Position numbers and translations under genes: made by a program. A stretch of DNA of 64,000 nt from contig SPDT01000004.1 in assembly GCA_008477525.1 (NCBI GenBank), forward strand, positions 2,790,001-2,854,000. Reading direction: 5' to 3'. The stretch comes from Hypomyces perniciosus (Eukaryota > Ascomycota > Sordariomycetes > Hypocreales > Hypocreaceae). The notes beneath the pieces were generated by a model that searched no databases, was not told where the DNA came from, and saw nothing but the letters and a program-made list of their open reading frames with translations. This document shows positions 3,001-63,051 of the stretch, in pieces. Position 1 is the first letter of the stretch, and each line of letters begins with the position of its first letter.

Positions 3001-3441
3001 TAGAAAGTTAGCTCTATATAGTTTATAGCTATTTTAATAAAACCTAATATTATATTTATTACCTTTTAATTATTAAGATTCCTTTTAAACTTTAATAATT
3101 TATATTATAGAGCAGTAAATTATTTAATTAAGTATCTTTTTTATATATAAATACTTATATTTTAGCTTAATAGGTTAAATTTTATTAATATATTTATATA
3201 TTTAAATAATTCTTTATTTATTAATAATATAATTAATTAAAAAAGCTTTTAAAGATATATAATAAAAGTATATAAGGGAATAATTATATCAAAAATATTA
3301 AAATAGGCTATTATTATAATATTAAATATAAAAACCAAACTTTTTATTATTTTAAAAGCAGTTAACGAAACTATTTTTACTAAAAAACTTTTAAAGGTAT
3401 TAAAGATCTAGTTAAATAAGCCTTTTAAAATAAAATATAAT
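1..3441 (+). mobile_element. RIP-degraded Ty1/copia retrotransposon, pol region (partial)
   Basis: The block is extremely A+T-rich and has no open frame, but ignoring stops, copia pol can be followed on the + strand. An integrase C-terminal stretch lies at about 1120-1250, a reverse transcriptase segment resembling KALYGL at about 2545-2600, and the catalytic YVDD box reads YINN at 2691-2702. An RNase H stretch resembling HHRAVNYLIKYL lies at about 3080-3140. Integrase before reverse transcriptase is the copia order. Asp-to-Asn and Val-to-Ile changes are what G-to-A RIP mutation produces. Positions 1 to about 520 match the second copy at about 8420-8930. The copy is cut off by the window start and at 3441 by an LTR, in the middle of RNase H. 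It cannot encode a working protein. Confidence 0.85.
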
Positions 3442-3978
3442 TGTGATGGGCGTAGCCTCTTACAGTAACTGATGATAGGGCGCCGTAGAATTGTCTATTC
3501 AAAGCTAAGGAGCGAGGGAATAGGAAGGGGGACTATCTAGCTATATATATATCGATCTATAGTGCAGTGGTGTATGTGCGCGTAGGTGTCAGAGACCCTC
3601 TTTGGGGCAGACGGATCGGGCGAGGGGCTGCGACCCTAGGGAAGAGTAGAGGAGGTTGAAGAGCAGTCACTTGGAGGAGAGATAGATGCTAACAAGCAGG
3701 TAACAAGCCAGAAACTAGTAGTTAGGTGTAGCAGCAGTAGTTTACTGGTCTCTGAAGTTCTATATCTTCGGGGACCACAGTTGCTCTTATATATGCATTC
3801 CGGCCCATGTGATATCATGAGAGCTCCGGAGCTTCCGGTCTCCTGACAGTAGGCCTAGGGCTTGTACGCGGTGCCTGATGTGTATATATCTGCATTAGCT
3901 GGTCCGGGAGATGTGGGGAATTGTAGTGCCGGGCTCGGCATAGCCGAGGTCCTTCCTAATTGGGTCTAACCCGTGACA
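3442..3978. mobile_element. LTR (family A) carrying a nested insertion
   Basis: It starts TGTGATGGGCG and ends CCCGTGACA, so it has TG...CA LTR ends. It is nearly identical to 9294-9561 apart from a 267-bp extra segment (a 262-bp insert plus a 5-bp duplication) and a 2-bp change in a TA run. Flanking pentamers (ATAAT and GAAAG) do not match, so no target-site duplication survives. The left flank is inside copia RNase H and the right flank is next to a copia LTR. This could reflect recombination between two insertions that removed what lay between. It is far less A+T-rich than its surroundings, so it is either younger than the RIP damage or too short to attract RIP. Confidence 0.8.
3587..3848. 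mobile_element. Nested solo LTR (family B), 262 bp, with 5-bp TSD
   Basis: The insert begins TGTCAGAGACC and ends GGTCTCCTGACA, an imperfect terminal inverted repeat with TG...CA ends. It is flanked by GTAGG at 3582-3586 and 3849-3853. The sister LTR at 9294-9561 has the uninterrupted site with a single GTAGG, so both insertion and duplication are shown directly. A 5-bp duplication and TG...CA ends fit an LTR retrotransposon reduced to one LTR. No protein is encoded. Confidence 0.85.
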
Positions 3979-3991
3979 GAAAGCTCTATTA

Positions 3992-4224
3992 AAGTTAAAA
4001 TAAAGGAAATTGCGATATAGAACTTAAGGAGGAGCTAAAAGATATAGACTAAAATGCAATGTATTCCAGATACACTATAAAATGGCTGGCTAGGAAACTA
4101 TCAGTAATCAGGACATAGTCCCGCAGATATTAGCGGGAGAGATGAATAGAAATGGAATTCAGGTGCCATTTGATCCCTACAGAGTGAGATGACTGCTGAC
4201 TACACGAGCCCGCTATACGCGACA
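3992..4224 (+). mobile_element. Copia-type LTR (family C) abutting the chitinase gene
   Basis: About 233 bp that align with the LTR at 6432-6655 (shared stretches include AAAGGAAATTGC, CAGATACACTATAAAATGGC and CTGCTGACTACACGA). The right end is CGCGACA, at 4224. The left end is altered (AGTTAAAA against TGTTGAAA), partly by G-to-A/C-to-T changes. About 15 bp upstream (AGAAAGC-CTATTAA) is also shared with the other copy, so both copies probably carry the end of the internal region next to a 3' LTR. Its right end interrupts the 3' part of the chitinase gene. Confidence 0.75.
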
Positions 4225-5364
4225 GGATAATGTCGTGGTCGAAGACGTCGTCGTAGTTGGTTCGATCGAAGTAGTCGTTGACGTCGTTGAAGTGGTCGTA
4301 GGGGCAGCCGTTGTGCTCGTCGAGGTTGGAACAGGGTTGCAACCGTGCTTGAGAGCATCCAAAGCGTGCTGGTTGTAAGTCTTACCGTTGATGACATTGG
4401 TGAGACCACGAGACAGATCCCACAGCGAAATACCGCCAAAGTGTGGTCGATCCTTGTACTTGCAAACGAGATCCTTCAGAGTCTCAGGTTGAATGTAGCC
4501 AGTACCGGTTGAATCAGGATCAGCGGGAAGACCGATGTAAAGCTTGGCTGTCTTGCTCTTTGCGCTCTTGGAAACAATGTCCTCCCAGTCGTCAAAGTTG
4601 AACTTGGAGCCGATCACGAATGGGTTGGAGATGACCTCACACGCGGGGTTGTTGTAGAACTGGATGAAGAGCTTATCGAATGCGGCCTGTTGGATCATAT
4701 CCTTCATGTAGAACCAGAGTGGGCTGGTAGGGCACTCGGGAGCACCAGTGATCCAGAGAGAAGGATCAAGCGAACGGAACCTGTTGATCATGGCGATATA
4801 CGGCTTGTTGGCTAAAGTTGAACATCAGCACTGTAACTGTTAGAGATCACCACACAAGCGTAACCCACGGAAATTAGCCTCAATGTCAAAGTCGAAGCCA
4901 TCAACGCAGGTATGTTCCGTTTCAGTGTCGAAGGGACGAGGCCCAGTCCAGTCGGGGCGGTAGGGACCAAAGGAGCGATAGAGGAAGTCGGCGAAGCTTT
5001 CACCATTCTCCTCGGTAGAGACCCAGTAGTCAGAGTTGATATTGTACTCTCCACCAATGCTCAAGATTATCTTGACGCCCCTAGCTTTACAGTAAGGGAT
5101 GTCTTGCTTGATTGTCATGCATTCGCTCGACAGGCGTGATGGCACGCCTTCGGTGTTGTTGTATGTTCCCGCCCAGCAATGAGGCCCAAAGTTAGACGCG
5201 GGATAAGTTGAGATCTCATTCTCAGGAGCTACGTTGATGAATCCCACAGTGATAGAGTCGACGCCGCTGTCACAGTGGTCTCGCAGGCTCTCAACACCAG
5301 CTTGTCCCCAATAGCCATTGAGGGCACCAAAGGCACCGGCCGCACCTGCCAATGAAAGGGCCAT
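4213..5364 (-). CDS. Class III (GH18) chitinase, 3' end replaced by an LTR
   Basis: Two exons, 5364-4869 and 4811-4213, joined across a 57-bp intron (donor GTGGGT, CTAAC branch site, TTTAG acceptor), give 364 residues. The product is a glycoside hydrolase 18 enzyme that cleaves beta-1,4-N-acetylglucosamine chains. The N-terminus is a short hydrophobic segment, then NGYWGQ, and the catalytic signature DGFDFDIE at about residues 155-162 with Glu162 as proton donor. The barrel ends with FGGISLWDLSRG. A Ser/Thr-rich linker follows, and in this family usually leads to a chitin-binding or anchoring tail. Here it stops after about 30 residues: the final Cys-Arg-Val and the TAG come from the LTR ending at 4224. 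The catalytic domain looks intact. The hydrophobic leader is short for a signal peptide, so the start at 5364 is less sure. Confidence 0.85.
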
Positions 5365-5950
5365 GGTGATTATTAATTGGCGAGAAAAGAAAGAGTGTAA
5401 GATGGCCGAAACCAATAGTAATGAGTGTGGTGATACTAGGATCAAAGAAAGGACGCAAACGAAACCGTCTGCAAGTGGCCTAGGACCGAGCCGTCTCTGA
5501 AGCTTGACAGAGAGAGAGTTGATGAGAGCAGAAAGGAAACGAACGAGAGGATAATGGCAGCAGCCCTCTCCATTTTGACTGCCCACACACACACTCGGCC
5601 CCAGGCACTCTCACGAACTCTAGGTATCTGTGGATTCGGCGGTTTCACTTCTCGGCCTACGCAGAGCCTCAACTCGAGGACTCTGCCTAGCACATATCGC
5701 TTGCACCATGCCCATACTCGTAGGGCTAGGTACGGTTTCGTGTTAATCTCGCAATAGGCCATGCCTGCAGCAATACATAGAGGAGGGCGGGTCCAGTTCG
5801 CTAGACATGGATGGGGGAGGAGTCACACACGCTGAGGCGTTCAGGAACAGGCATAGCGTTCTGTGACAACGGGCGCCCTGCATTCAGCCGGCAACCAAAG
5901 TCATCAAATAAAGCTATCAAAGCAACACTCAAATCGAGGCCATCCTAATA
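5365..5950. other. Upstream region of the chitinase, normal base composition
   Basis: No gene is supported. This GC-normal stretch holds the probable 5' UTR and promoter of the minus-strand chitinase. Open frames over it start at non-ATG codons and overlap the leader. It ends abruptly near 5950, where A+T-rich RIP-type sequence resumes. Confidence 0.6.
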
Positions 5951-6431
5951 AGCCAAATAGTCAAATGCATTAGGCCTTGGATTTAATAAATTTAATTAAG
6001 TGTATAAAGTAGGATTTTAGCCTAAATTAATATTTTCCTATCTAGATTAGTATTTTTTCCGGCGGAATTATATTCTTTTAATAAGAAAATATTCTTAATA
6101 AGCATTATTCAGTTATATAATAGCCGGCTTTAATATTAATAATATATAGTTAATTAAACCATTATCTTACCCTTTAATATTATAGCCACTTTAATATAAT
6201 AAGTTTTACTACTTTTAGCATTTTGTGCCCTCTTAATATAGTAGTATAGGTTACAGCTATATTAAAAAAATATTAGTATTATCTAGCTACTACCCTAGCC
6301 TTAATAATATAGTAAACCTGCTATTTGTAATATAGTATAGCTAAAGCTGTATTGCTAAGAAAATAATTTTAAAGAAGGGTGTAAAAGGCTATATGTATTG
6401 GATTATGTGGATTGGTAGAAAGCGCTATTAA
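5951..6431. repeat. A+T-rich RIP-type degenerate repeat
   Basis: This is strongly A+T-biased sequence without coding potential. The last 15-20 bp before 6432 match the sequence upstream of the copia LTR at 3992, so its right end is probably the internal 3' end of a copia copy. I cannot place the remainder in a family. Confidence 0.6.
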
Positions 6432-6655
6432 TGTTGAAACAAAGGAAATTGCAATGTGGAACTCGAGGAGGAGCTAAAGATATAGACTAGAGGAACGCGA
6501 CGCGTTCCAGATACACTATAAAATGGCTGGCCGGGAAACTATTAGCGATTAGAGGGGGAAGGAACAATAAAAATAAAGAGAGATAGAATTTAAGTGCTAT
6601 TTAATCCCTATAATATAAAAGAACTGCTGACTACACGATTCCTTTATATGTAATA
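6432..6655 (+). mobile_element. Copia-type LTR (family C), second copy
   Basis: It starts TGTTGAAACAAAGG and ends near GTAATA, the RIP-altered form of the CGCGACA end seen at 4224. Immediately downstream is GTTATAAGCCC, which may be a decayed primer-binding site, and then copia gag-like sequence. It thus serves as the 5' LTR of the element at 6656-8930. Its right half has more transitions than the copy at 3992-4224. Confidence 0.75.
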
Positions 6656-8940
6656 GTTATAAGCCCGGATATATATATAAAGGCCCCTGCAGATATAAAA
6701 AATAAATGTTTTCCATTATTTTTAAAAATATTAAAAGTAATTATAATAACCTTTATTATTTAGAACTTTAAATATATAACCTACCATTCTATAACGCAAT
6801 ATAATAATCCCTTAAGCAACTATAGTGCCTAAAAAGATTAGTATTATCTTTAATAGTAAAGAGGACTAAGATAACTAGCTAATTAATATTGAAAATAATA
6901 TACTATTTATACTTTAGAAAGCTATTAATTTATTTAATTAAACTATAGTATTAATAAAGAAATTAGCTAAACCTAATATATTAAACTTTAATAATAGTAT
7001 TAATAACTATATAGCCTTAAAACCAATTAAATATATAGGCTATAACTAAGCTATTATTATATAGAAAAAAGTAAATAAAAAGTATAAGAAATAGACCTGT
7101 AATATAGATAAAGTATATACCTTTATCTATAACTATATTTTATTAACTTTTTAATACTATCTTTAAAACAAGAATTTATTTATTTAATAGATAAACTACC
7201 TATAAAGTTAATATAAGTTAAAGGAAAGGTTTATACTAAACTAAATAAAATCTTAATATTAATTAGTTTTTTAATCCTTTAAAGGCAATAAAAATTTAGT
7301 TATTTAGCTAGGGAATTAAAAGATAATAGTTAATAAAAGAGCTAAATATAATTTTTTTAAGCTTTAAAAAGGTTATTAGTTATTTTATTAGGGGTAACTA
7401 ATATACCTAATACACCTATATTTTTTTTTATTAAGCTTACTTAAAAAAAGTCAGCTATTTATTTAAATAGTTATTAGATTAAAAAAGTATAAAAGTATAA
7501 AAATATATAAATAAACCTAGTTTAATATATATTAACCTTTTTCTATTTTCTATATATAACCTTACCTATAAATATATAGCCGCTAAGGCGTATAAAGGTA
7601 ACTATTAATTGCTTTTAACTGCTGGCATTATAATTGAATGATCTGCAGTATCTTTTAGACCTTATATTACTTAATCGCCGCTTTGTGGTTCTGTTAGGAG
7701 CGCAGTCCCCGCGCTCGATACTAGTCGTTATGTGTGGGTGTATGTATATTGTGTATGTGTTTTGGAGTGCTAATTCCCCCTCGACTAATTATTTAATTTT
7801 GCAAATTTGCTGGAACTAGTCTACTAAACCTATATAACTACCTTTTAAGATATAGCGAGGAAGATTAACAAAGAATAATAATAATTAAAAAAGAAAACTT
7901 TAAAAGCTATTTAGTTTATAAAGGATATTAAGATAAATAGGCATTATTGTATTTTAATAGGAATCGAAACTAAAAAAGTAAAAGAGGCAATATAATTAGT
8001 AATTAAGATTAATTTAAAAAGGCAAGAACTCCTTTCTATTAAAACTAATAATTAATTAATTAAAAGGTATTAAGGAATTAACAGAATAGGTTAAAGATTA
8101 TTACCTAGTAATATAATAAGTAGTTTATTAAAGTTAAATATTCTTTAGCAATACTTTTAAAAAAGAAATTAATAAACTAAACAAAAAGCTTTAAAAAAAT
8201 AGCCTAAAAGATAATAATAAAGCAAATACTAAAAATTAAATAAAAGAATAGCATTAACTTATAAAGTTTATAGATAAATTGACTATTATATAATTAATTA
8301 CTAGGCAGTAATCCTAGAATTTAAATTAAAAGGAATATTTATTTACTTTAATAAAAAAAAGGCAGTTAAAGAAGCTATTTATAATAATACTAGGCTAAAA
8401 ATAAAAATTAAAAACTTTTAAAAAAAGTAAAGAAAAAGAAAGTATTTTAATAATTTAAATTAAAGGCTAAAAAAATAAAAAGGATTATTAATTAAATAAG
8501 TTTAGTAAAAGTAGCCTTTTTAGTAAAAGTTAAAAGTAATTATTATAAAGATTAGTATTTTTTATATCTATTAATAATTTTAAACTTAAAAGTAATAGTA
8601 TATATTATTAATAACTTAGCTTAATTTAAATCCTTTAAAAAAGTCAAATTAAATAAATATATTATTATAAGAGATTTATATATAACTATAAAAGGATATA
8701 AATCAATTTAAGTTTAAGGAATAAAGCTTTATAAAACTAAAAAGATATTAAGGATTAAAAAAGCGCTATATTATTTAATATTTGCAATAAATATAGTCTT
8801 TTGTTATTTTCTTTATAATAAAAAAGTTAAATAACATATATTAATAAATCTAATAATATTTAAATATAAAAGTAAAAGGAAGATTTATATAACAAAATAA
8901 TAATACTTTATTAAAGGGGAATTAGTACTTTAAAATATAT
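6656..8940 (+). mobile_element. RIP-degraded copia retrotransposon, gag to integrase region
   Basis: A+T-rich sequence follows the LTR at 6432. Read through its stops, the first part (about 6800-7150) looks like the gag of fungal copia elements. The part from about 8420 to 8930 is homologous to positions 1-520 of the first copy. Homology ends near 8930, so the 3' half with reverse transcriptase is missing. Like the first copy it has no usable frame and should be read as a fossil. A GC-richer patch interrupts it near 7625-7815. Confidence 0.75.
7625..7815. other. GC-richer island inside the RIP-degraded copia
   Basis: About 190 bp of near-normal base composition, containing undamaged CpG-rich words such as GCGCAGTCCCCGCGCTCG, sits in the middle of heavily mutated sequence. 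The edges are approximate. It is most simply a later insertion. I see no clear terminal repeats or target duplication, and the 61-codon frame across it does not look like protein. Confidence 0.5.
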
Positions 8941-9293
8941 ATATAATATATATATATACCTATATATAATAACCGGTATCGAGTATAAGGACCGCGCTCC
9001 TAATAGAACTATAAAACAGTAATTAAGTAATATAAAGTCTAAAAGATACTGTAAATTATTTAATTATTATTACGGCACCGACCGTAACGCGATATTGACG
9101 CCCTGTCACGTAAGCCCCGGTCATGTAACCAGGCACTAACGCGTTCCTAGCTATAGCTTTCCGTAAAGCCTTAGGGCTTTCTCGCTCTCTATAGTATAAT
9201 AATAATATTTACCTTAACCTGCCTTTCCATACTGTAATAATTTATACTATCCCTTAATTTAGCTACGCTATCGCAAAGCATATACTTAACTAA
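8941..9293. repeat. Mixed-composition segment, possible gypsy LTR remnant
   Basis: After a TA-rich run (8940-8965) comes a stretch with a GC-richer core at about 9070-9190, containing TGTCACGTAAGCCCCGGTC. That core resembles the LTRs of fungal gypsy elements, and it precedes gypsy gag-pol remains. I could not define LTR ends, so this is a suggestion from position and composition. No gene is present. Confidence 0.4.
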
Positions 9294-9561
9294 TGTAATG
9301 GGCGTAGCCTCTTACAGTAACTGATGATAGGGCGCCGTAGAATTGTCTATTCAAAGCTAAGGAGCGAGGGAATAGGAAGGGGGACTATCTAGCTATATAT
9401 ATCGATCTATAGTGCAGTGGTGTTTGTGCGCGTAGGCCTAGGGCTTGTACGCGGTGCCTGATGTGTATATATCTGCATTAGCTGGTCCGGGAGATGTAGG
9501 GAATTGTAGTGCCGGGCTCGGCATAGCCGAGGTCCTTCCTAATTGGGTTTAACCCGTGACA
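9294..9561. mobile_element. Solo LTR (family A), 268 bp, with 5-bp TSD
   Basis: It begins TGTAATGGGCG and ends CCCGTGACA. It is flanked by ACTAA at 9289-9293 and 9562-9566, the expected duplication for a single insertion that later lost its internal part. It nearly matches 3442-3978 without the nested 262-bp insert, so it preserves the empty site of that insertion. It lies inside A+T-rich sequence but shows little RIP damage. Confidence 0.85.
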
Positions 9562-12500
9562 ACTAATTATAAATTCCCCTAAATCCCCCTTTATTCCCAA
9601 ACCTATAATAACACCTTTACAGCCTAGCCTTTATCCCTTAAACCCTATATCTATAGGAAACCAATTATAAGTAAAATAAATATAAATGCCTTAAACCTTG
9701 CCCTGCAGCCTAACTTAGCCTAATAGACTATAATTTTAATTATAAAGCTAGCGCTGTTCCTTTTTCTCTTTAAACCCTATAAAAATCTAGTATTAATAGC
9801 GACTATATATATTTAATAAATGCAATTATTAAAGATAATAACTTTTATTACTAATTTTATCTTTTTAGTTAAATAATAGAAAAAGGCTTAATTTAATAAA
9901 AAAAATAAAAATAAACCTTTAAATAGGAAATTTTAAAGTAGGCAGTTAAAAACTAAAACTTTAAAGTATAAATTAAAGTTTAGGTTAAAGCTTTAAACGC
10001 AGCTTTGCTATTAAACTTTAAAAATAATAATTTACTTAGCTGCTATTAAATTAAAAACCTTAAATAATTTAATAGTAAATAAAAAGATATTATTAAATGT
10101 TAATAAAAATATATTAATTAGTATTCCTAGATTAATATTACCTTTATAAGTAATTAATTAATCTTTTTAATTAAACTTAAAAGATCCTGTATATTATAGG
10201 TTTTTTAAAGGGAAATATATATTAACTGCAATAAAAAAACTTTAATACTATTATTAAAAATCTTAATAACCTTACTTAATAGCATTAAAAGATTAATATA
10301 GAACTTTTTATTAATTTTAATAAGCAATATAAAATAATTAACCTATTTTAAAAAGTATTGTAATCTTTTAATAACTTATATATATTAAATAAACCCTTTT
10401 AGAATTTTATAGTAATATTATCTACATTAAATAATAAATATAGTAAAACCGCTAAATAGATAATAAAGGCTTTAAAGATAAAGGTCTTTTAAAAGCTTAC
10501 TAATACTATAAAAATTTAAGTAATTAAGCTAAATAAGTCTAACTTTACTAAATAATATTAACTTTACCAGATTATCTATAACAGGCTCTAAAAATGCATT
10601 TATTATAACGCCCTCTATACTGCTTAAATAGGCTAGCATTAATAAAGCAATTAATAATAGTAGTATTAGCACTAACAGTAATATTATTAACGCTAATAAA
10701 ATAATTAAGCCGCTACCTTAATGCTAGCTAGTAACCTAATATAGCTAAATACTATATATACCCTATTACCTTGCCTTTAAATCTTTTATAAAAAATATAT
10801 CGTTAAAGGACTCTACTTTTATTATAAAAAAGCAGGCTATATATAGCCTTAATAAATATAATAAAAAAAGGAATTTAATATATATTAAAGAAACTTATAT
10901 TAAATATAAAACTAAAATCGCTAAGTTTAGCTATATTAGCTATACTTTAACTTAACAGTACTTTAAAGCTAATAATAAAATAGTTTAATAAAGTATAATA
11001 ATTAGACTTTAACAGTATATTAATATTACTTATAATGCCTAATTAACTTATAAATCTAGGCCTTAAATAATATACTTTTTTTAAATATTAATAAAGATAA
11101 TAATAGTAGTGCTATTTTATTAACTTTTAATCTACTTTAATTTAACTAGCTTTACCTATTAAAAACTTAAACCTAACTCGCGAATTAGGGAAAAGATTAA
11201 CCTTTACTAAAAGTTATAAATAAAGGTTAACTGTAAATAAAATTATTATCCTAAAATAAATCTACTGCTATTTTTTTTAATTAAAAACCCTTTAAATTTA
11301 AATTAATAAATAATAAATCCCTTATAATATAAACTATACTATTCCTTGTATATAATATTTATATTAATATAAAAGCTTTAATAAATAGTAGCTATATACT
11401 TTAAGCTTTTATTAACTATACTTTTATTAAGCAATTTAATATTATTATTTAATAACTATTATTTATTAAAAACTTTTTATTTATTAATAAAAGTATAGTT
11501 AATTAAATTTTAAACTTTTTTATTATATAAACTATAATTAGCTCCTATAAAAAACTCTGCCTTTTCTTTATTATAAATATCTTTAATAATATATTTATAA
11601 TCTTTAGCCTTTTATAGGTAAAAAAATATAACTTTAATATTAACTAAGAAAAGTTAATTATTACTTTTAAATCCTATTACTATTATAATTATTATCTTTT
11701 AAAAAGTATAGCCAGTTTTATATAAATTTTAATAGTAATTAAAATAAAAAATAACTTTATTAAAGTTAATATAAAAAATATATATTATTAGTAATTAATA
11801 ATTAAAGATACCTTAAATAAAGTAAAGCTTAATTTAATTAAATAAAAAACTATACTATATTAATAACTATTAATTAAAAATACTTTAAAAGAAATAAACT
11901 ATAACCTAATTAAAAAGGGAGCCTTTAAATTATATATTTTATAAACCTTAATACTAAACCGAGATTACTATATAACCTGCAGGTATAGTAGAATTAATAA
12001 TAAAGAAATATAAGTATAAATAATCCTAAACTAGGTATATATAAAGCTACTGCCTGCTTTTATAATTTGCAGTTAATAATAAAAAGGAAAACTTTTATTA
12101 AAGCTATTACTATTACTTTTTAATATACTACTTTTATAAAACTAAATTAAACTTTAAAATTAAAAAGTATACCTAAATATAGTAGATATATAAATAATAA
12201 TAGCTATAAACTTTATTACTTTTTATCGCTAACTATATATCTATATAATAAAAGTAATTTAAAAGGAGATTAACTAAGTTATTAAAATTAAAGAACTAGC
12301 GCCTATTACTTTACTTAAACTTTTAAATAAGTTTTTCCGATAAATATTTATAAAATAAAGAAACTATATTAAAGTAAAATAGTGTTATTAAAAGAAATAT
12401 ATAACTTTATTAATAAATACTACTCCTTAATATAATTAAAAAAAATTATAGCTGCTAATATAAAGAAATTTATAATAGGGAAACTTAAACTTAATAAACT

Positions 12501-12705
12501 AAATATTTTAAAAAAAACTGCTATTTTAACTATATAACCTATATAATACTTTCCTGCTAAAAATAGTAAATAAGCTTCCTTTATAATAGGCCTAGGACTA
12601 TAAAATTAAAATATTGCTAAAAAAATCCTTTATATTAAAAGAATAGGCTATTTTTACCTAATAAACTATAAGTAATAAAAAAATAGTTAAATAATAATTT
12701 AGCGA
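9562..12705 (+). mobile_element. RIP-degraded Ty3/gypsy retrotransposon, gag to start of RT
   Basis: No frame is open, but the + strand keeps gypsy landmarks. A gag-like region covers about 9800-11000. An aspartic protease site expected as Asp-Ser-Gly-Cys reads Asn-Ser-Ser-Tyr at 11384-11395, each change being a G-to-A transition. The approach to the reverse transcriptase domain lies at about 12280-12705, ending in a stretch like LDDNLAKG (now LNNNLAIQG). The element stops there, so RT, RNase H, integrase and the 3' LTR are absent. The break is about 45 bp from the end of the pirin gene. Confidence 0.7.
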
Positions 12706-13784: not shown

Positions 13785-15110
13785 ATATACTTGTTTACGG
13801 AGAAAGGACCAGAATGTTCGCACTTTGGAAAAGAATAGTAATACATGAGTGATGATGAGTTTTTGAAACCTTTTGAAACCTTTTGAGGCAGTTCTTGTGC
13901 CTTACCAAACCATTCCTCAGCATAGGATAATGTTGGCCACAGTCGGATTACATGATGCTTACGAACTACCTACAGAGAGGTACATATGTAACCCCGCCTG
14001 CTGAGAAATTCCACCTTGGCCGATTGGCCTGGGAGAGAGTCACATGCGTAGTCACGTGGATAGAAAGAGGCTTAGAATCTAGATACTACTTCATAATGCC
14101 GGCGATATTCCGAGAAGCTACTTCGTACAAGCATTTAGTAGCAGGCATTGCTGGTGCCTACTAAAAATAAAATAAAAGAGTACAGAATACGAAGCAAATG
14201 AAACTTTTATCGATAATAGTCTCCTACTTCTCACGTTCAGGTATCCCGTATTCGCCGACTAGGGCTGAGCGTTGCGCAAATCAAAATTGAACAACTCAGA
14301 GTACGGAGTACTACTACAAGGACTGGTGTGCTAGTTGGCTGGGCTGATGACGACTATTGATGCTTGCTGGCAGTTCTAGTGGGCCAACAAATAAATTCGC
14401 GGCCAGCAGGGGGAAAGAGAAAAATAAATTTCTCTCTCACATTATTATTCATGCCTTTCTCAATACCCTTTTCTCTTCTTATACGGAGTATTATTATATT
14501 ATGTAGACACTGGAAGCTTCTTTACGTGACAGGTCCGTGAGTCGTGGTTGGCTCAGACACCGAACCCTGGTTCCCCCAGCCACCCGTTTCTGCGGGGCGT
14601 TCGGCCGTCTGCGCCACCCGTTTGTCCACTGAAGCTTCAGCCCCATGTCCGAATCAGAACGTCCAGCATTGAGCCCAAAGGTCCAAAGGGTCAGGCCGCA
14701 ACACTCAACACAACTGCTTTTCAAGGAATTCTCCCTTTGCAAGTTCGGTCTTACCAACTTCATTGTATTCATTGTGACTATGTGAATTGTCTCAAGGTAA
14801 GTCAGCGATTTCTCGCCTGTTTCTAGTTCTCTAGTGGGTCAATCCCTGTGCAAGCTCCCGTGTGGGAACTATCGCAGGGCCCTGGTGGCTGGGAGGCTTC
14901 ACACCCAACCTTCCACTATCCACGACTTCATCCTTCATCCCAGCCTCATGTTTAAAAAAAAAAAAAAAAAGAACAAGGCCAACCATATTTCACGACTCAG
15001 TCTCCTATCATGCACCTTCTCCCCTCTTGCATCACGTTCTGCAGAATCAATTGGCCGACCTTTTCTACTAGTCGAATTGGCTTGTCTGCATTACATAGAA
15101 CGCTGCGAGA
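13785..15110. other. Divergent intergenic region
   Basis: This is the promoter space between pirin (-) and the DUF3433 gene (+). It holds three 9-mers of the dispersed TAC(GG/TT/GA)AGTA-type repeat (14119-14127, 14302-14310, 14482-14490) and an A run at about 14953-14970. A good donor at 14796 (GTAAGTCAG) and a CTGCAG acceptor near 15044 could bound a 5' UTR intron of the downstream gene. Short frames here have no protein features. Confidence 0.5.
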
Positions 15111-30055: not shown

Positions 30056-30134
30056 TCCGATATGGTGTAGTGGCTAACATCGCTCGCTCTCATCCAAGTG
30101 CCGAGCAGCCCTGGGTTCGATTCCCAGTATCGGA
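30056..30134 (+). tRNA. tRNA-Glu (anticodon CTC) with 8-nt intron
   Basis: A full cloverleaf folds: 7-bp acceptor stem TCCGATA/TATCGGA, D stem GTGT/ACAT, anticodon stem GCTCG/CGAGC, four-base variable region and T arm CTGGG-TTCGATT-CCCAG. The anticodon loop is 15 nt; removing TCCAAGTG after position 37 leaves CTCTCAC with anticodon CTC. TCCGATA is the usual fungal tRNA-Glu end. A T run (TTTCTCTTTTTG) follows as the RNA polymerase III terminator. Confidence 0.9.
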
Positions 30135-30495
30135 GCTCAATTTCTCTTTTTGCGTCTTGAATAATATCCATTCCTTTTTTTGTCATCATTTTTGCTTGCC
30201 GATGTTATTATGTATGGATGGATGGATGGATGTATGAAGAACAAGTTAGTGTGCGGTTCTGTTGGCAACGTTATCCACAAGGTGCTCAACTTGTGTACTC
30301 TTTCTAGCGTTGTATTTGTCCAGGAGATGGATAATCTCATGCAGTCAAGTGTATCAAGATGAATGAACATCGAGTAACAATTTTTTTTCCCCCAATTCCG
30401 CCAGAAATTCTTCAGTTTTTCTTATTCATCAATCTCATCCATATCAACAGCACATAAAAGACAAGGAGGCCCTCTAGTTCGCCGAGGATCACCTC
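30135..30495. other. Intergenic region with ATGG microsatellite
   Basis: It lies between the tRNA terminator and the 3' end of the lactone oxidase gene. A short (ATGG)n run occupies about 30212-30232. No gene is seen. Confidence 0.5.
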
Positions 30496-40093: not shown

Positions 40094-41593
40094 TTAGTCC
40101 ATCTCCACTAGAGACACCTGGAGGATATCCTCATGCATATTTTCTTCGATCAGATTGACGATTTGCGCGTTTCCCCAGAGATGAGCGACGGCGAGTTGGT
40201 GGTTGGTTACTGACACTCTACCCGTGTGAAGAAGCAACTTCACTGAATCAATGTCTCCGCTCCGTATGGCGTAATCTATTGGAGTGTTGTCGCATCTGCT
40301 CCTCGCGTTTAAATCGACATGTTCACTAGTCACAAGCCGTGTGATGATGGTCATGGCCTCCTTCCTCCTGTCTGAGCTCGGCACGGACAAAGCAATCATT
40401 ACTGGCGTTATGCCCCATTGATCTTTCTCGTCTGGCTTGATGTTCTTCATCGATAGGAGTAATTCCGCCATTTTGAATGAACTGTCCCATATCAAGGCGA
40501 GATGGAGGGCCGTCTCGCCTCGTGCATTCGTCCGATTGGGGTCTACGCGACCCGAGTCCAACAACAACCTCGCAATGTTTACATAGGGTCCCATCACGGC
40601 CTCCATCAAGGGTGTATAATGTTGACTATTCTGACCGTTTAGGTCGACCCTGTCGTCATCCAGCAGAAGTCGCACGATCTCCTCGTGGCCGTTTTGTGCA
40701 GCGAGTGCTAGTGGTGTTTGTCGTCCGTCAATATGATAATCAGGCCTGGCACCATGAGCAAGCAATAGCCTCGCAACCTCAATGCCACCGTTCTCTGCGG
40801 CAATCTCGAGTGGTGTGCACCCAGCGGAACCTCGTACGTCTGCTTCTGCCCCATGAGAGAGCAACAGCTCAACCATTCGGGCACTACACAATTGTGCAGC
40901 GCCGTGCAACGCTGTGATGCCATCCCAATCAGCTGCGTTCGGGTCGACATGGTATTCAGTTAGCAGAAGTTTGGAGGCGTCAAAATGCCCCATTATAGTT
41001 GTTAGGATGAGTGGTGCATCGCCGCCACTGTGCCTTGCTTCTGGGTCTGCGCCATTGTCAATAAGAAGCCGTATCATGGCGACATCTCCAAACTCCGATG
41101 CCTGAAACAGAGCATGCTGGAGTTCGTTCCTCTCTATCATGTAGCTCCTGACATCCTCAAACTTGAGCATCCGCGCTACAAGACCTCTATAACAATGACG
41201 GACAGCAAAAGTGAGCACCTGGGACCATAGATACTCTGGTGCGTAAGATGTAATATTCCGTGGGATTGGCGAATCTTTTGCTATTTCAGCAGCGGTCTGT
41301 AAGATTTGATTTACCGTCTTTCGGTCGTTGCTTTGGGCGGCACACTCAAGTGCTGACAGTCCCCCGAACTTGATGTTATGCAAAATGCACCTATCTCGTA
41401 ATGGGCGAGAGAGGCGAAGCCGGTGCTTTCTGTCAACTGTGCGTAGTATTAGGCACTTGGGTTCTATAAGAAGTAAGTTGTAAATGTCTTGAGGCTCGAG
41501 CTGCTCTAGGATAATCATGAGAAGCTCGAATGGTAGTCCGAGGAGGGATTTGTCCGATTTCGTCCGCGAACCGGAGGGGAGAGTTGACAACAT
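40094..41593 (-). CDS. F-box protein with ankyrin repeats
   Basis: Intronless, 499 residues from ATG 41593. Residues 17-50 (LLGLPFELLMIILEQLEPQDIYNLLLIEP) form an F-box, predicted to bind Skp1. From about residue 150 to the end there are eight to nine ankyrin repeats, clear ones being DVAMIRLLIDNGADPEARHSG, GITALHGAAQLCSARMVELLLSHGAEAD, GCTPLEIAAENGGIEVARLLLAHGA and QTPLALAAQNGHEEIVRLLLDDD. The last repeats are more divergent. F-box plus ankyrin is a repeated theme in filamentous fungi and in some intracellular bacteria; here codon use is ordinary. It probably selects substrates for an SCF ubiquitin ligase; the substrate is unknown. Confidence 0.88.
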   Translation of the reverse strand: MLSTLPSGSRTKSDKSLLGLPFELLMIILEQLEPQDIYNLLLIEPKCLILRTVDRKHRLRLSRPLRDRCILHNIKFGGLSALECAAQSNDRKTVNQILQTAAEIAKDSPIPRNITSYAPEYLWSQVLTFAVRHCYRGLVARMLKFEDVRSYMIERNELQHALFQASEFGDVAMIRLLIDNGADPEARHSGGDAPLILTTIMGHFDASKLLLTEYHVDPNAADWDGITALHGAAQLCSARMVELLLSHGAEADVRGSAGCTPLEIAAENGGIEVARLLLAHGARPDYHIDGRQTPLALAAQNGHEEIVRLLLDDDRVDLNGQNSQHYTPLMEAVMGPYVNIARLLLDSGRVDPNRTNARGETALHLALIWDSSFKMAELLLSMKNIKPDEKDQWGITPVMIALSVPSSDRRKEAMTIITRLVTSEHVDLNARSRCDNTPIDYAIRSGDIDSVKLLLHTGRVSVTNHQLAVAHLWGNAQIVNLIEENMHEDILQVSLVEMD

Positions 41594-55416: not shown

Positions 55417-56064
55417 GTTTTCTTGATTTCACGATGCTCTCAATCTCTTCTGAATACGCGGGCCGTGTCTTTACCCTGCCGCGATTGGTAGTAGTCGTCC
55501 TGTCTCCCTTCGAGGTCTCCTGTTTGGATCGCCTCGGAATCGCGATCCACCCCTCGCTCCGGGGATCGTGCGCGGTAGTCGTCGTGCATAACGGCGTCAA
55601 ACAGCACGATCGCTGTGGCAATAGAGGTGGAAGAAAGAATGTGACTTTGGCTGCCAGTCTACCTGGTGGTGAGTTTTGGTGGGATGAAAAAGTCAAGGGA
55701 GGTTGCTAGGTTGCCTTGTGGTGTTGCTAGGAGGAATAACTTGGGTTGACAGCTGTCGAGCGCTGACTCAGCAGCCTAAAAGATGGGAACTGAAATCTAC
55801 AGCAGCGATCGTCAACGCCACACCAATTACCCCCACGTACTTTATCTCAGTTCTTAAGACTACTACTACTAATACCTCCAAGTCAGGCTGGTTTCTCCTC
55901 ACTTATAACGAGTCGTAACTGAACTGGTATAATTTAATATCTGTATCGTTTCATTTAAGATATTCGTGGTCAACGGCACGAACTGAACAATACAATTGAG
56001 AGTGCTTCTGTTGGCGGGGTAGACGTGCGATAAAGTACCCTGAAATACTACTACTACTACTACC
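55417..56064. promoter_or_regulatory. Divergent promoter, RRM protein / MoaE
   Basis: 648 bp between two divergent starts. CTA trinucleotide runs lie just before the MoaE ATG (56047-56062) and near 55859-55870. Frames across it are not credible as genes. Confidence 0.5.
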
Positions 56065-56624
56065 ATGGAGACCTCCAAGGACGAGATATGGGAACTGGCT
56101 GAAGAAGGCTGCTATGTGGCTTTGACAAGCGACCATCTAAATGCCCAGGAAGTTATGGATAGAGTCCGCAGCCCATCAGCCGGGGCTATTGTGCTTTTCG
56201 CAGGTATGAACTTTCCAATCCCTCACATTCATCATGAAAATCATACCCTGACATTCCATTCCATTATACTATAGGCACGACACGGGATAATTTTGCTGGA
56301 AAGCCTGTCAAAGAGCTCCAATACACAGCATATAACAAACTGGCACTGCGAACAATGATGTCTATCACCAAGGACATATACACTAAGCACGCCCTCAAAG
56401 GCATCGCCATGATTCACCGGCTGGGGACTGTGCCCATCGGAGAGGAGAGCATTTTGATTGCCGTGTCATCGCCTCACCGACAGGCTGCATGGAGGGCGGG
56501 CGAGGAAGCCCTCGAAGAGTGCAAGGCAAAAGTGGAAGTATGGAAGAGGGAGGAGTTTGAGGGTGAAGAAGGCGTTTGGAAGGCAAATCGGGATGGCGCT
56601 ATAGGACAAAAGGTGGATTCATGA
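56065..56624 (+). CDS. Molybdopterin synthase catalytic subunit (MoaE / MOCS2B)
   Basis: Two exons, 56065-56203 and 56275-56624, with a 71-bp intron, give 162 residues. The large subunit of molybdopterin synthase converts precursor Z (cPMP) to molybdopterin with sulfur from the MoaD subunit, needed for nitrate reductase and xanthine dehydrogenase. Family motifs are GAIVLFAGTTRDNFAGKPVKEL (split by the intron), YTAYNKLALRTM, IHRLGTVPIGEESILIAVSSPHR and AWRAGEEALEECKAKVEVWKREEF, with the expected basic active-site residues. The length matches fungal homologues (A. nidulans cnxH). No MoaD-like partner is encoded nearby. The start is the first ATG after CTA repeats. Confidence 0.92.
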
Positions 56625-56874
56625 TCATGTAACGTTTCCATTCATCGTCTCTCATATAAAACCTCTGGGTACCAACTCTACTAACGCCTCTAGTCTAGGG
56701 AAATCTTGAGTGAAGCCGCCTCATTCGAACCATTCGTTCGTTGCATAGTGAAAGGTCTATCTCCCACCACAGGCCACATCTCCCCCACTCCAAAAGAAAA
56801 ATGCAATGCTTTATATAAACTCCAAGGAAACCAAAAACAACGTGTGCCAATGGGACTGCCGTTGCTCGTTATTC

Positions 56875-57423
56875 TCATTTCTCATAAACGGGAGGTGGTT
56901 CCCTGAGATACTGAAAAGGGCACGGTGGCGGGTGACAGGCATCGCATCTTCCAAACATGACTGTCGCATCGGTTGTCAGTAAAGTCACATAACGACTTCT
57001 TCTTCACAGGGGTTTGGCCAACGCACCTATATGACCATAGTATGCCTCGGTAAAGGTCACATCCACACCCAGGCCTTGGACCTCCACGTCTTCTGTCAAG
57101 GCAGACGGATAGACGACAATGCCATACTCCGAATGCAGCACACGCCAGAACTCAAATGGAAGCCTAAGTATCGCAAAACGTCAGCAATGAGAAATTTGAA
57201 AATGATACTTCTTATCAGACACGTACCTATACTGGCCATGTTTGATGCACGCGTGAACGAACAAGCAGACTGTTTCCAACACCAGGCGACCCTCCTTGAT
57301 GGCCACATCGAGTTGCGCATCCTCTAGGCTGTAGACTCGTTTTAATCTTTCCTTGGAATACTTCATCGCAATGGACCAGCCTTTGGCGATTTTGTCCAGG
57401 TCGCGTTCGTATATTTCGCTCAT
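56875..57423 (-). CDS. Hypothetical protein, 139 aa, three exons
   Basis: Exons 57423-57227, 57163-57027 and 56960-56875 (introns 63 and 66 bp) keep one frame and give 139 residues. An ATG at 57450 would add nine residues; GATTGCAG just upstream may be an acceptor from a 5' exon. I do not recognise the family. The first half is helical (MSEIYERDLDKIAKGWSIAM, then KERLKRVYSLEDAQLDVAIKEG and LETVCLFVHACIKHG). The second has LPFEFWRVLHSEYGIVVYPS and YYGHIVMFGRCDACH. The C-terminus is Pro/Cys-rich (CDACHPPPCPFQYLREPPP). There is no signal peptide or membrane segment. It lies tail-to-tail with MoaE. Consistent splice sites and non-repetitive sequence argue for a real gene. Confidence 0.6.
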
Positions 57424-58295
57424 CGTTGCTGGGGGTTCTGCAATCATCATAGAAGAAGCCAACAGGTGTATGCGATGAAATTCTCAATAGTCAACAGAGG
57501 ATTAATGAAGTTAGAAGGCACAAAGAGAGATGATTTGATATATTTTTCGAGGAGAATGTTAGGTATTCTACATGTAAGGGACATTGTGGGTTGAAGTACT
57601 TGGCCATGTTATCGAGATGATGGCCATCAAGGTGCATCCGAGCGCGCGAAAGCCGTCATGGACAGTTTACAAATCCGAATTCGTCATCCCGTGGTTCCAA
57701 TTAAGTCGAACAAGGGTACACTAAAATATTGGGAAAAGAAAATGGTCAATTCTGGTATGGAAGTTGCTAAGTCAAACAACGGGCTTTGTGCTACTGATGG
57801 CAGGAGTTCGAGGTTCATGAAAGCACAAAGCACAAAGTATTATTGGCCATGGAAATAGCAAGATAATGGCTGTTGACTCCGGATCCACCGGACTTCCGCC
57901 TCATTGGGTGTAAAATTCCTGGGAAAAATCTCATAAGCCAGGTGCTACTACTATTCGCCAGGATGATCGGATACCTTGATGGGGAATCAATGTCTTGTGA
58001 CCACATTTGAACCACCAAAGTCAATACTAAACCACGCAGAGACTTTTACAGGTAAAAGAAGTTTCCTATTGTGTATGCATCTATTCTAGATTGAATCGTG
58101 GCATCTAGATGCAACACTTCTCGCCGATCGAGTGACCACGACCCGCCCATACAAGAGGAAAAGGGAAAAACCCAAGTCTATATCCCCACACGAACCCGAT
58201 ACTATTTCTGTCCTCAACATGCGCTACCCAAACAGCAAGACTCTGTGAAAAGGCCATACGCGAATATACAACGTCATTCGATTTATTTTTGTTAC
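57424..58295. other. Intergenic region
   Basis: About 870 bp with no gene. It contains the upstream region of the 139-residue gene and the 3' UTR of the secreted peptide gene. Confidence 0.5.
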
Positions 58296-58581
58296 TTATT
58301 CAGCGCAGACGGTAGTAGGGAATCCTATGCGCTTGATGCACTTGCCAGAGCAGCACTGCTTAGCAATGAAGCACGAGACTGGTTGAACACAGATCTGTTA
58401 GAAGACATCACCCAACTTGTACTTGAAATCAAGTGGCCTTACCTAAAGCCGGGCGGCACTCCTCACGGGCGGAGATATCAGCGTCAGCACAGCCAGAACT
58501 GACAGAGGCATCCGGAGCGGGAGCGGCCAACGCAGGACCGACGATTGCAGAGACGGCAGCGAAGACGATAGCGAATCTCAT
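58296..58581 (-). CDS. Small secreted knottin-like cysteine peptide
   Basis: Exons 58581-58443 and 58378-58296, joined by a 64-bp intron (GTAAGG donor, CTAAC branch site, ACCAG acceptor), give 73 residues. Residues 1-20 form a signal peptide (MRFAIVFAAVSAIVGPALAA). The mature part has seven cysteines at 31, 42, 49, 55, 56, 60 and 71. The last six follow C-x6-C-x5-C-C-x3-C-x10-C, the inhibitor cystine knot pattern, with the core QCCSGKC. A TATA box (58732-58739) lies about 150 bp upstream. If the intron were retained the frame would end soon after Leu46 with only two cysteines. The peptide may be an effector, an antimicrobial or an enzyme/channel inhibitor; sequence alone does not decide. The seventh cysteine (31) may pair with a partner molecule. 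Confidence 0.75.
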
Positions 58582-60459
58582 TTTGTAGGTGTTTTCTTTT
58601 GTTGAAATGCGAACCAGCGCAGATGGAATTGCTGTATAATGAAAAGGCTGTTTTGTTTGTTCGGTGAGTGGTTGAGTATGAGTATGAGTGTGAGTGACGA
58701 TTCTCTTGGCCTCGGGGGGATGTAAGGTGCTCTTATATAGACGGAGAATCTCTAATGGAAGACTGGCTTAGTCCTACCTAGAAGATCATGAACAACGTGA
58801 AGATCTTCATCATCATATCACTCCTAACCCCGTCTCCCATGACCGGAGGACAGGGTTGGTAGCGCATGATGTCAGTTTCACGATCAGCTAGAAACCCGAT
58901 ATTGTGTGATGACTCGATACTCAGCTGTTTCTCTTCATAGCAGCTTGCTGATTGATGGTCACAAATGCCTATTCGTGCGGAATACCGCGGTGAAGAGTTG
59001 TGATAAGGCGTCACCTCTTCTCCCATCGAGACCTGGGGATGTGTCTTGCGTACTTGTTCGGTATCCGCATTTGGGTTCTGGCTTGGTATGGGGAAAGAAA
59101 GACGTGCATGGGTATGACCCACGTATGCATGAGCGTATGTAATGCATCTGGATGGAGATGTATCAGCTGGTCTGATTGGATAAGTGGAAGTGGATGTTCT
59201 TGAGGGCCTCGGGAGACAGATAAGTTAGACCGAATATCCACATACCTGATTGCCCGACTATTTAGGACGATGTGAAATTGTTGTCGGTCGGCCGCACTGA
59301 ATAATGCCGACTTCCGTATCGTTGTTTGTAGATCGCCATTGATAGTCCTAATTTGGGCTGTGTTAGAGGTTGTGAAACACCAGCGGCTTCAATGGCATGG
59401 AGAGCTACGTGGAATACGATGAAACATCATGCGTCATGACGTTCTCCGTAACCTAGATGTCAATTAGCCTTCGTGGAAAGGATCGAGTTTCCTATTGAGC
59501 GAAGCTCGAGTTAATCACAGGTCATCAACTGAAGCTAGCAGACGGACATTCCGGATCGACGGTAATATTATGTTGGACAACGGTCCCTCCGGCATAAAGA
59601 CAATTAAATTGCCCATTCAGAAACCGTAGCTTAATAATCCAAATTATCAAAGCATGGAAATTTTAAACATTTTATTGGCTCCAGATGTTGAGTCTTGACA
59701 TCCCGGGTAGGTGAGCAACACCAAGCGATGTAATGTTGCGGAGATCAGAAAGCACGTGTCGTGTCGACGATATTTATGGGTTTCTAGAAGCAAAGAGCCT
59801 TTTCGAAAAAAGACTTCATGGTAGTAGCTACATAAAAGAGCTATGGGGTAGCTATCGTTCGGTTCAGCAAATTCCAACGTAGAATCGGCTGAGTATAGAG
59901 TTAGCACTCAACTACTCCGTATTACTACTCTTATTTCCCATTTCGTTCATGATGGACAATTCAATCCATCTGTGGAGAAGCCTTGCAGTAATACTACATC
60001 GCTAGTCTATAAGTGATGAACAAGACTTAGTAAGATGTATGCACGATACACACGTCGATCCTTGCACGAGACAAAAAGCCAAACATTAAGCCAAAAACAA
60101 CCTGCATCTCCAACTCCACGACTCCGAAGAAATGTCATTTATTTCACTCGACAATGCAACATTTGCTATTACTACTTAACACCGGCGTGCCCTGATACCA
60201 ACTGCTATCTATTTTCTGAAACACCTCTCACACGGAGGATGTTCATGCTGGAGGGCCGACGCGCTTCCTTGAAGCATCATCTACTAAGCATCGCCCACAA
60301 GAGAGACTACAACGCTTCATTAGTAATTCAATTAAAATGTATAGACATCATATGGTATCCAATGGCTCAACAGCCAGGTCATAACGCTAATAACACATCA
60401 AGAAAGATCCGTTGCCGAGCGGTCTCTAATATGTACAATATGCACCCATGTGCCCGCCC
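58582..60459. other. Intergenic region upstream of the knottin-like gene
   Basis: About 1.9 kb without a gene. Near 58670-58700 GAGTATGAGT repeats lie between the TATA box and the start codon of the peptide gene. TACTCCGTA occurs at 59913-59921. A 145-codon + frame at 60035-60472 runs into the antisense of the reductase gene and shows no family features. Confidence 0.5.
58732..58739 (-). promoter_or_regulatory. TATA box of the knottin-like gene
   Basis: TATATAAG on the minus strand, 151 bp before the ATG at 58581. A clear TATA box suggests an inducible, strongly regulated promoter, as is common for secreted-peptide genes. Confidence 0.5.
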
Positions 60460-63051
60460 CTACAAGGCGTAGTTCTCCGTGTGCAGAAAGATCTCCTCCA
60501 GTTCATCATCTCCCCAGATCTCTGCCTGGAGTTTCGCCACGGTGTTTGCCACACCTACTCGCATTGCTGGTGGACCGCACACAAACACTGCCGTCCTCCG
60601 GCCCAAGATGCCTCTACCATCCGGGCCACCTGTCGCCCACTGCTTGAGCATGTAGCCAAGCTCTGGGCGGCCGTACTCGACGGTCCAGCCGCCGTCAATT
60701 TCCCGTGGTAGTGGGAATGCGGAGCGCATCAAGTTCTTTTGGAACTCTGTTGGTGTCTCTGGGAAGCCAAAGTCGAACCCGGCGGGTGGGCCGAGAGTTG
60801 ACACGGGACGCTCATTTGTGCCCGCAGCAACATTTGAAGTTCGTAGATAGGCGAGCTCGGGAGCTCGAACCGGGAGAGGATCTTGTGTAGGATGGGTTTC
60901 TGCGGGATTGTTGGGTGAGTGCGGCGCGTAGTTGAAGTGAGGGGCATTTTCTTTGTTGAGGGGTGGGAAATGGAATTCGGAACCGTTCTTCGAATCCGGG
61001 TCGGCATCAAGCTGCTTCTTATCTTCAGGGTATCCATTCCCTTCGAGTTGCTGAAGAGCATCCTCGGACGTTGCAAGCTGAGTCGATCTTGGTGGGTTCG
61101 GGGGAGGAGGTGGGTATTGATAAGGCTGCAAGAACATTTGTTGCGGGAGCGCAGTGATGCGGTCCTCGTTCTCGGCTCGTAGTTCGCGCTCTCGCTCTGG
61201 ATCTCCCTGTGCCTCAGCCTGGATGAAAGCCGAGTTGCGCTTTGAAGCGACTCCAGCGACGAAGCCATCGAGCTTGTCGTGGAACATGTGTGTCAAGGCT
61301 CGAGAGTTGCCGTTGATAGGGGCAGTCATCTCTTGTCCTCGGCGGTTTCGCACTGCGCCCGTGACGAAGAATTTGCAACTGACACTTTCAGGTGGTGCCG
61401 ACTCATGGCAGATACGCAACTCCTCACGGAACCACTCCATGGCTTCCAACCTTTTCATGGCCCAGACAACAACTACCTTTCTGGTAATGGCCTTTCCATC
61501 ACGCATTCGCTTGATTAAATTTAGTAACTGAGACATCAGCGATGTAATACCGCTTCCACCTGCAATGAGAATGCAGGTATCAAAGGCGGCTAGGTCTCGT
61601 CGCATGCCTCCATAGGGGCCATCCAAAAAGGCCCGGTAGGTATGGAATGGACCTTTCTCGATAGCAGTATCCAAGACCTTACGAGTGAAGCCCCGATAGG
61701 GCTTGAAAACCAGGATGCAGTCTCGGTACTTCTCACCATACTCCGAGGGAAAATCCTCACTGCAGAGGGACGAGATGGTAAATGGATGGTTTTCGAGCAA
61801 AGAGATGCCAGGCATGCGGAGGTATACATATTGGCCCGGCTTCCATCGCATCTGGGTGGGGATGGTGATTTTAATGGCATTCTCAGCCAGGAGAGAGATG
61901 GCAGCCTCATCACCAACCAGGAAGGAAAGGCGCCCAGGCCAGACCCAGTTCAGCTTGAACAGCCTCATCACGTAGCAGAACACCCAGATGCCTACAGTGG
62001 CATACAGGTAGTCCCAAGTCATGAGGTAGTTCTTCGTATGCCAGAACAAAAGTCCGACATAAACCATACCGACAGGCACGTGGAATAGGATGAAGATTTC
62101 GTATGCAACTCTTCGAATCCAGGGCAGAGAGGCAACACATAGCCAAATCAAAGGAACGATGCAGGCAATGCCAGTGCCATAGATGACTCCGCTGCCGGGA
62201 GGGAACAACTGGCCGAAGACGTCCATGCCGCCATCCTGCCAGACAGGCTGGACATAAAAGGGAATCATGTGAACCAAAGAGAGGAACAAGCACATGTAGC
62301 TGAGCCATCGATGGAAGACATTGAGTCGTTCAGGCCCAATACCGATGAGAAGGGTCATCACATTAGCCTTCATACTCGTCGCAATAATCCATGGTGTCAG
62401 GGCTACGGCAATCATGCCGGACCTAATGGCGAGAGGCGGCGAGCCAAACCGGATACTCTGCCAATAAAGGGGCTGCTGTAGGAAGCAGTAAAGGGTGACG
62501 AACACAACTGCAATGAAGGTAGTGGCCAGTACTGCGAGCGATGAGAAGGTGAAGCGATTTTTGCGCCAGACGATGTCTGGGATAGGTCGATAGAAGAGCC
62601 ATCGAAACAGCGCCATAGTATCGTTCACAACGCCGACAGAGGAGAAGTGCGCCTTGGGGCGGAACTGCTTGCTCGTGTGGGTGCCCTCCGGGAAGAATTC
62701 CTCAGCCTGACCGGTTCGAATTGCGGCCATGGCAAAGCTGGCGTCGACATTGTAAGTCTCCTGGTAATGCGCCTCGACCTGCTGCTTGTACAAGGCTTGT
62801 CGGATCTTGTCCTGCCAGAAGTGCCAGATTCGCATCACAAGAACGCTACCCGTGAGGGCCACCGCGAAGTACGTCCAGCCGAGCGCATATTTGCCTGACT
62901 GGGAGAACGGATCGACAACATTTGCCTGAACCAGACCTGGAGGGCTTGTAGGCGTTAGGGGAATGTTGATGCGCCTGACGAGTTTTGAGAGCGTTCTGGA
63001 GGCCTGGATAACAGCCTCACGGATGGCTGGCTGCATATCAGGTGGTGCCAT
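60460..63051 (-). CDS. Ferric-reductase-type transmembrane flavocytochrome (FRE family)
   Basis: Intronless, 863 residues from ATG 63051. Such proteins pass electrons from NADPH via FAD and two haems across the plasma membrane, usually to reduce Fe(III) or Cu(II). After a first membrane helix (about 55-75) there is a soluble loop, then a ferric-reductase transmembrane core at about 170-370 with haem-ligand candidates in FHRWLSYMCLFLSLVHMIPFY and FHVPVGMVYVGLLFWH. The FAD motif HPFTISS lies near 418, the NADPH glycine motif AGGSGIT near 497 and CGPP near 820. Between the last two is a long Pro/Gln/Asn-rich insertion (about 610-770), which makes the protein longer than most. No signal peptide is evident. 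Iron regulation cannot be judged from the promoter. Confidence 0.9.
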   Translation of the reverse strand: MAPPDMQPAIREAVIQASRTLSKLVRRINIPLTPTSPPGLVQANVVDPFSQSGKYALGWTYFAVALTGSVLVMRIWHFWQDKIRQALYKQQVEAHYQETYNVDASFAMAAIRTGQAEEFFPEGTHTSKQFRPKAHFSSVGVVNDTMALFRWLFYRPIPDIVWRKNRFTFSSLAVLATTFIAVVFVTLYCFLQQPLYWQSIRFGSPPLAIRSGMIAVALTPWIIATSMKANVMTLLIGIGPERLNVFHRWLSYMCLFLSLVHMIPFYVQPVWQDGGMDVFGQLFPPGSGVIYGTGIACIVPLIWLCVASLPWIRRVAYEIFILFHVPVGMVYVGLLFWHTKNYLMTWDYLYATVGIWVFCYVMRLFKLNWVWPGRLSFLVGDEAAISLLAENAIKITIPTQMRWKPGQYVYLRMPGISLLENHPFTISSLCSEDFPSEYGEKYRDCILVFKPYRGFTRKVLDTAIEKGPFHTYRAFLDGPYGGMRRDLAAFDTCILIAGGSGITSLMSQLLNLIKRMRDGKAITRKVVVVWAMKRLEAMEWFREELRICHESAPPESVSCKFFVTGAVRNRRGQEMTAPINGNSRALTHMFHDKLDGFVAGVASKRNSAFIQAEAQGDPERERELRAENEDRITALPQQMFLQPYQYPPPPPNPPRSTQLATSEDALQQLEGNGYPEDKKQLDADPDSKNGSEFHFPPLNKENAPHFNYAPHSPNNPAETHPTQDPLPVRAPELAYLRTSNVAAGTNERPVSTLGPPAGFDFGFPETPTEFQKNLMRSAFPLPREIDGGWTVEYGRPELGYMLKQWATGGPDGRGILGRRTAVFVCGPPAMRVGVANTVAKLQAEIWGDDELEEIFLHTENYAL

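Follow-up and report, generated by a model that had tools for sequence, protein, structure and literature searches.

A two-exon gene for a candidate secreted knottin-like peptide in the mushroom parasite Hypomyces perniciosus

Hypomyces perniciosus, the wet-bubble fungus, is a member of the Hypocreaceae and a parasite of button mushrooms; its transcriptome across stages of infection has been described (PMC7829358). In a 64,000-nucleotide stretch of its genome (hereafter, the window), we identified a two-exon gene on the minus strand (58581-58296) whose spliced translation comprises 73 residues. The gene looks real, a chance origin being unlikely, and its product is likely a secreted knottin-like peptide, as judged from the translated sequence. 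We consider it probable that this genuine and apparently single-copy gene gives rise to a 54-residue exported peptide that forms an inhibitor cystine knot between C42 and C71 and probably acts outside the cell. The direct basis for this reading consists of the gene structure in the DNA, the codon bias, the cysteine spacing, and weak similarity to protein models that include knot families.

A first-pass annotation of the window had proposed a spliced peptide gene at this place. We reproduced its coordinates, its 64-bp intron, its 73-residue product, and its cysteine pattern, and placed the gene on the minus strand, the strand being absent from that annotation. The textbook intron signals it had claimed were located as a GTAAGG donor, a CTAAC branch motif, and a CCAG acceptor (Table 1). 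The intron does lie between the first two knot cysteines, C42 (I) and C49 (II), as had been proposed. The further assertion that the knot exists only in the spliced message stands in that translation of the intron-retained reading ends after 50 residues, but such an outcome is ordinary for an intron-containing gene. A 134-codon frame on the plus strand over the same place (58098-58502) lacks an ATG start and was not accepted as a gene, and an Rfam search of positions 56000-60500 returned no match.

Table 1. Features of the peptide gene (positions in the window)
Feature	Position	Strand	Details
Exon 1: ATG start, predicted signal peptide (residues 1-19), N-terminal extension bearing C31, first knot cysteine (C42, I)	58443-58581	-	139 nt; translation, codon usage
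Predicted signal peptide MRFAIVFAAVSAIVGPALA, cut predicted after A19	58525-58581	-	A at -3 and -1; translation
Intron GTAAGG...CTAAC...CCAG, phase 1	58379-58442	-	64 nt; donor context G/GTAAGG, acceptor CCAG/
Branch-point motif CTAAC	58397-58401	-	Consensus match only; A 19 nt before acceptor end
Exon 2: knot cysteines II-VI (C49, C55, C56, C60, C71) and TAA	58296-58378	-	83 nt including stop
TATA box TATATA, within TATATAAG	58734-58739	-	Consensus match only; 158 nt before ATG
AATAAA, possible polyadenylation signal just after stop	58282-58287	-	Consensus match only

The DNA was scanned for gene models that combined an ATG, a hydrophobic start, and the knot cysteine pattern, an intron being allowed where donor, branch, and acceptor motifs accompanied it. 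No further model was found in the window, in the 20 loci (200 kb) of real DNA adjoining it, or at seven weak-match loci of the fungus's own genome; hits at four other loci were the same gene retrieved again. Random controls were generated by a third-order Markov model from 250 kb, consisting of the window from base 14,001 (with the gene included and the AT-rich end left out) and the 200 kb of adjoining DNA. Under loose criteria, hits arose in 4 of 120 random 250-kb sets and, when the run was repeated with different seeds, in 30 of 1,200. A stricter scan, which the real gene passes, additionally demanded a stronger hydrophobic core, a cleavage site that obeys a set rule, absence of early cysteines, and a knot that begins beyond residue 20. 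It gave hits in 2 of 1,200 random sets (300 million bases), a count that is somewhat flattering to the candidate because the criteria were fixed when it was already known.

Furthermore, the synonymous codon choice of the gene scored 0.162 per codon (z = 3.96), and none of 20,000 random recodings was as gene-like. This value resembles that of the codon reference, which was built from 12 long open reading frames in the window; its own value of 0.141 ± 0.105 over 77 pieces comes from these training frames themselves. All 1,474 overlapping intergenic stretches, drawn from approximately 2.4 kb of flanking DNA with stops skipped, scored lower than the gene (maximum, 0.147). The bias was greater in exon 2 (0.287 per codon) than in exon 1 (0.076).

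The 73-residue precursor reads MRFAIVFAAVSAIVGPALA followed by APAPDASVSSGCADADISAREECRPALVSCFIAKQCCSGKCIKRIGFPTTVCAE, the latter being the predicted 54-residue mature peptide. The signal peptide claimed in the first-pass annotation is supported by sequence features, namely a hydrophobic core (score, 2.99) and alanines at -3 and -1, on which the call rests. The protein contains seven cysteines with spacings of 10, 6, 5, 0, 3, and 10. Its last six have the arrangement C-x6-C-x5-CC-x3-C-x10-C (C42-x6-C49-x5-C55-x0-C56-x3-C60-x10-C71); thus, six knot-spaced cysteines and one extra were found as described earlier, the extra one being C31. The calculated pI was 6.4 for the 54 mature residues and 8.9 for the 32-residue segment that begins at C42 and runs to the C-terminus. 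The last knot loop contains a Lys-Arg pair (residues 62-63; 58329-58334, minus strand) at which Kex2 might cut; cleavage there could open that loop, with the chains still joined by disulfides.

Two other cysteine-rich classes were considered and rejected. CS-alpha-beta defensins need a C-x-C pair, and none occurs among the spacings given above. Hydrophobins contain eight cysteines with two CC pairs, and the peptide has seven cysteines and one CC pair; for class II hydrophobins, the number of eight is also given in an extract of PMC10672791. The spacing rule for knots printed in the extract of PMC6889267 is C-x2-7-C-x3-10-C-x0-7-C-x1-17-C-x4-19-C, and the last six cysteines of the peptide fall within all of these ranges. 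We propose that the spliced mRNA would be translated into the 73-residue precursor and that signal peptidase would remove residues 1-19 to release the 54-residue peptide. An inhibitor cystine knot would be formed by the C-terminal 30 residues (C42-C71), with predicted disulfides C42-C56, C49-C60, and C55-C71; this is the I-IV, II-V, III-VI pairing that defines such a knot, in which the last bond threads the ring. C31 would not take part in the knot and would lie in a flexible extension at the N-terminus. Judging from the peptide type and the lifestyle of the fungus, our guess is that the exported, stable peptide would most likely have an extracellular target, either the mushroom host or microbes that compete with the fungus.

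Profile searches returned weak matches. The 73-residue form matched six Pfam models at E values up to 1, all below their curated cut-offs: UPF0506 (E 0.0004), Conotoxin (0.002), Stig1 (0.0045), NIP_1 (0.0046), scorpion calcine (0.007), and a nematode antimicrobial model (1). The trimmed peptide also matched the spider family Toxin_21, again below the cut-off. UPF0506 came nearest, with 21.2 bits for 73 residues, 22.1 for 54, and 23.0 for 36, against a cut-off of 23.2. No score above the curated cut-off was reached for Pfam UPF0506, Conotoxin, Toxin_27, or Toxin_21; these matches are partial, covering the C-x5/6-CC-x3-C core, and common descent is not claimed. Membership in the NIP1 necrosis-inducing proteins was likewise not indicated (Pfam NIP_1, 17.8 bits against a cut-off of 25), and a search of NCBIfam gave no relative. 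Searches of the Protein Data Bank (PDB) gave no significant match, the best E values being 0.27 (a nematode antibacterial peptide) and, in another PDB search, 0.31. The five weak matches of the latter search were a venom polypeptide (6px7), maurocalcin (1c6w), the pi-hexatoxins 8uwf and 2n8f, and a nematode peptide; three of them (the venom polypeptide, maurocalcin, and one pi-hexatoxin) align over the C-x6-C-x5-CC stretch. We take Conotoxin, calcine, and Toxin_21 to be cystine-knot families and 6px7, 8uwf, 2n8f, and 1c6w to be knots; Stig1, NIP_1, and the nematode antimicrobial model are presumably non-knots, as are two nematode peptides, and UPF0506 is of uncertain standing. When the non-cysteine residues were scrambled with the cysteines preserved, six of nine scrambles had no match at E values up to 1, and each of the other three hit one or two models; a single scramble matched a knot model (Conotoxin_I2, E 0.018).

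The fungus's own genome (23 contigs, 44,002,379 bases) was searched for paralogues using the whole protein and exon 2 alone as queries, and no second copy was found; these searches score the best candidates only and treat each exon separately, so that a paralogue that has diverged could escape. Besides the gene itself, seven weak places emerged, the best with E 0.07 and none of them exceeding a family cut-off, and four Pfam family searches of this genome also gave nothing over the cut-off. At the seven places, frames containing three or more cysteines were inspected by eye, and a scan of the loci yielded no secreted knot model. One place (L010, on contig C4, around 1311068-1311151) carries a 282-codon cysteine-rich frame with two similar cysteine-rich modules and a weak UPF0506 match, unlike the peptide described here. 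No relatives were found in the protein set, the bacterial and archaeal genomes, or the viral contigs. This lack is weak evidence, because the collections searched were of proteins, prokaryotes, and viruses, with no fungal genome collection among them, and because small intron-split genes are easily missed in protein sets. The protein set includes named Hypocreales, Cladobotryum mycophilum among them, and no identical protein was listed for either neighbouring gene tested. For the neighbouring oxysterol-binding protein, the best identity among the matches listed was 91% (7,988 candidates scored). For the ferric reductase gene upstream of the peptide gene (60460-63051), the closest named protein among the matches listed was from Cladobotryum mycophilum, at 81% (7,995 scored).

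The empty searches for relatives in protein, bacterial or archaeal, and viral collections would fit an open frame that had arisen by chance and were no gene. Such an origin is nevertheless judged very improbable, because comparable models are rare in random DNA, the codons are gene-like, and the sequence has a TATA box as well as splice and branch motifs. Use of the second possible donor, GTGAGG, as the main splice site appears only slightly less improbable. With the same acceptor it would define an 88-nt intron and a 65-residue product whose first loop is longer; the 73-residue form would then be minor or absent. The frame stays open, the cysteine count becomes even (six), and UPF0506 is still weakly matched (E 0.0011). 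However, the donor context is weaker (C at -1), the first loop of x9 exceeds the x2-7 range printed in the extract of PMC6889267, and the number of Pfam models matched at E values up to 1 falls from six to two.

A more serious competitor, although still rather unlikely in our estimation, is a real small secreted cysteine-rich protein without a cystine knot, which would have another three-disulfide arrangement or would include C31 in its fold. Several points speak against the knot: no family match reaches its cut-off, knot and non-knot models are mixed among the matches, with nematode antibacterial peptides among the weak ones, seven cysteines leave one unpaired, and a Lys-Arg pair lies in the last loop. 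On the other hand, the spacing fits the published rule in the extract of PMC6889267, the C-x-C pair of CS-alpha-beta defensins is lacking, and matches to knot models mostly vanish when the non-cysteine residues are scrambled, one of nine scrambles having touched such a model. The inhibitor cystine knot therefore remains our preferred reading.

The first-pass annotation had also described fungal knottins as rarely reported. This was overstated, given reports from several fungal groups, although few structures had been solved in 2019, to judge from the extract of PMC6889267. As described in extracts of the articles cited, 30 knottin transcripts are known from Histoplasma, alongside Avr9 and relatives from further fungi (PMC4503680), knottins have been predicted in Beauveria (PMC12099005), and a BAS3-centred cluster was annotated as scorpion-knottin-like (PMC8715435). 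Among the knottin-like candidates of Venturia, an intramolecular knot was predicted for one family member and one singleton, and several "knottin-like" families have no true knot in the models covered by the extract (PMC9632046). A Melampsora knottin from a 13-member family was solved by NMR; as far as its authors knew, no fungal protein had previously been shown with a knottin-like structure (PMC6889267, 2019).

Our peptide resembles this MLP124266/AvrP4-type knottin of Melampsora larici-populina in being putatively secreted, with a flexible N-terminal half containing extra cysteine(s) and a C-terminal six-cysteine knot spacing, a likeness drawn by description from the extract of PMC6889267. 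In contrast, MLP124266 belongs to a rust (a basidiomycete) and to a 13-member family, and its mature protein has 69 residues, eight cysteines, and an NMR-solved knot (PMC6889267). The Histoplasma KNOTTIN Fungi1 family, including Avr9 (extract of PMC4503680), is similar in that its members are small secreted proteins of ascomycetes and have a six-cysteine pattern at the C-terminus, but it is an expanded family found by the Fungi1 profile, whereas no second copy of the present gene was found. The spider-toxin-like knottins of Beauveria bassiana share the order Hypocreales and a predicted knot, and at least one is described as Beauveria-specific; they differ in coming from an insect pathogen and in having been identified by structure prediction, and they too are likened by description (extract of PMC12099005). 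No paper joining Hypomyces with knottin, or Hypomyces with cystine knot, was found in the open-licence literature searched.

The result is a good new gene model in a peptide type already known from fungi, and no new class is opened. If expressed, the gene would provide the wet-bubble parasite with a candidate secreted peptide and would indicate that small intron-split genes of the knottin type are legible from raw sequence. It is a doubtful, speculative idea that a specialist mushroom parasite uses a lineage-specific knottin against its fungal host, that is, fungus against fungus, as opposed to knottins aimed at plants or animals.

Several other features of the window were observed. Positions 1-12700 form an AT-rich block with a GC content of 0.20-0.23, a TpA/ApT ratio of 1.29-1.41, and a low (CA+TG)/(AC+GT) ratio of 0.49-0.55, a composition that we take to be the mark of repeat-induced point mutation (RIP). 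The block is interrupted by an island of normal composition (4201-5700), in which a gene resembling GH18 chitinases lies at 4840-5592 (PF00704, E 3.8e-6; 27.2 bits, the cut-off being 29.6). ARAGORN reported a tRNA at 30056-30136 with a four-base anticodon (ctca) and no amino acid assigned; the call may be spurious, or the tRNA may be an unusual one. An ankyrin-repeat protein is encoded at 40094-41593 (Ank_2, E 9e-54), together with a sub-threshold F-box match.
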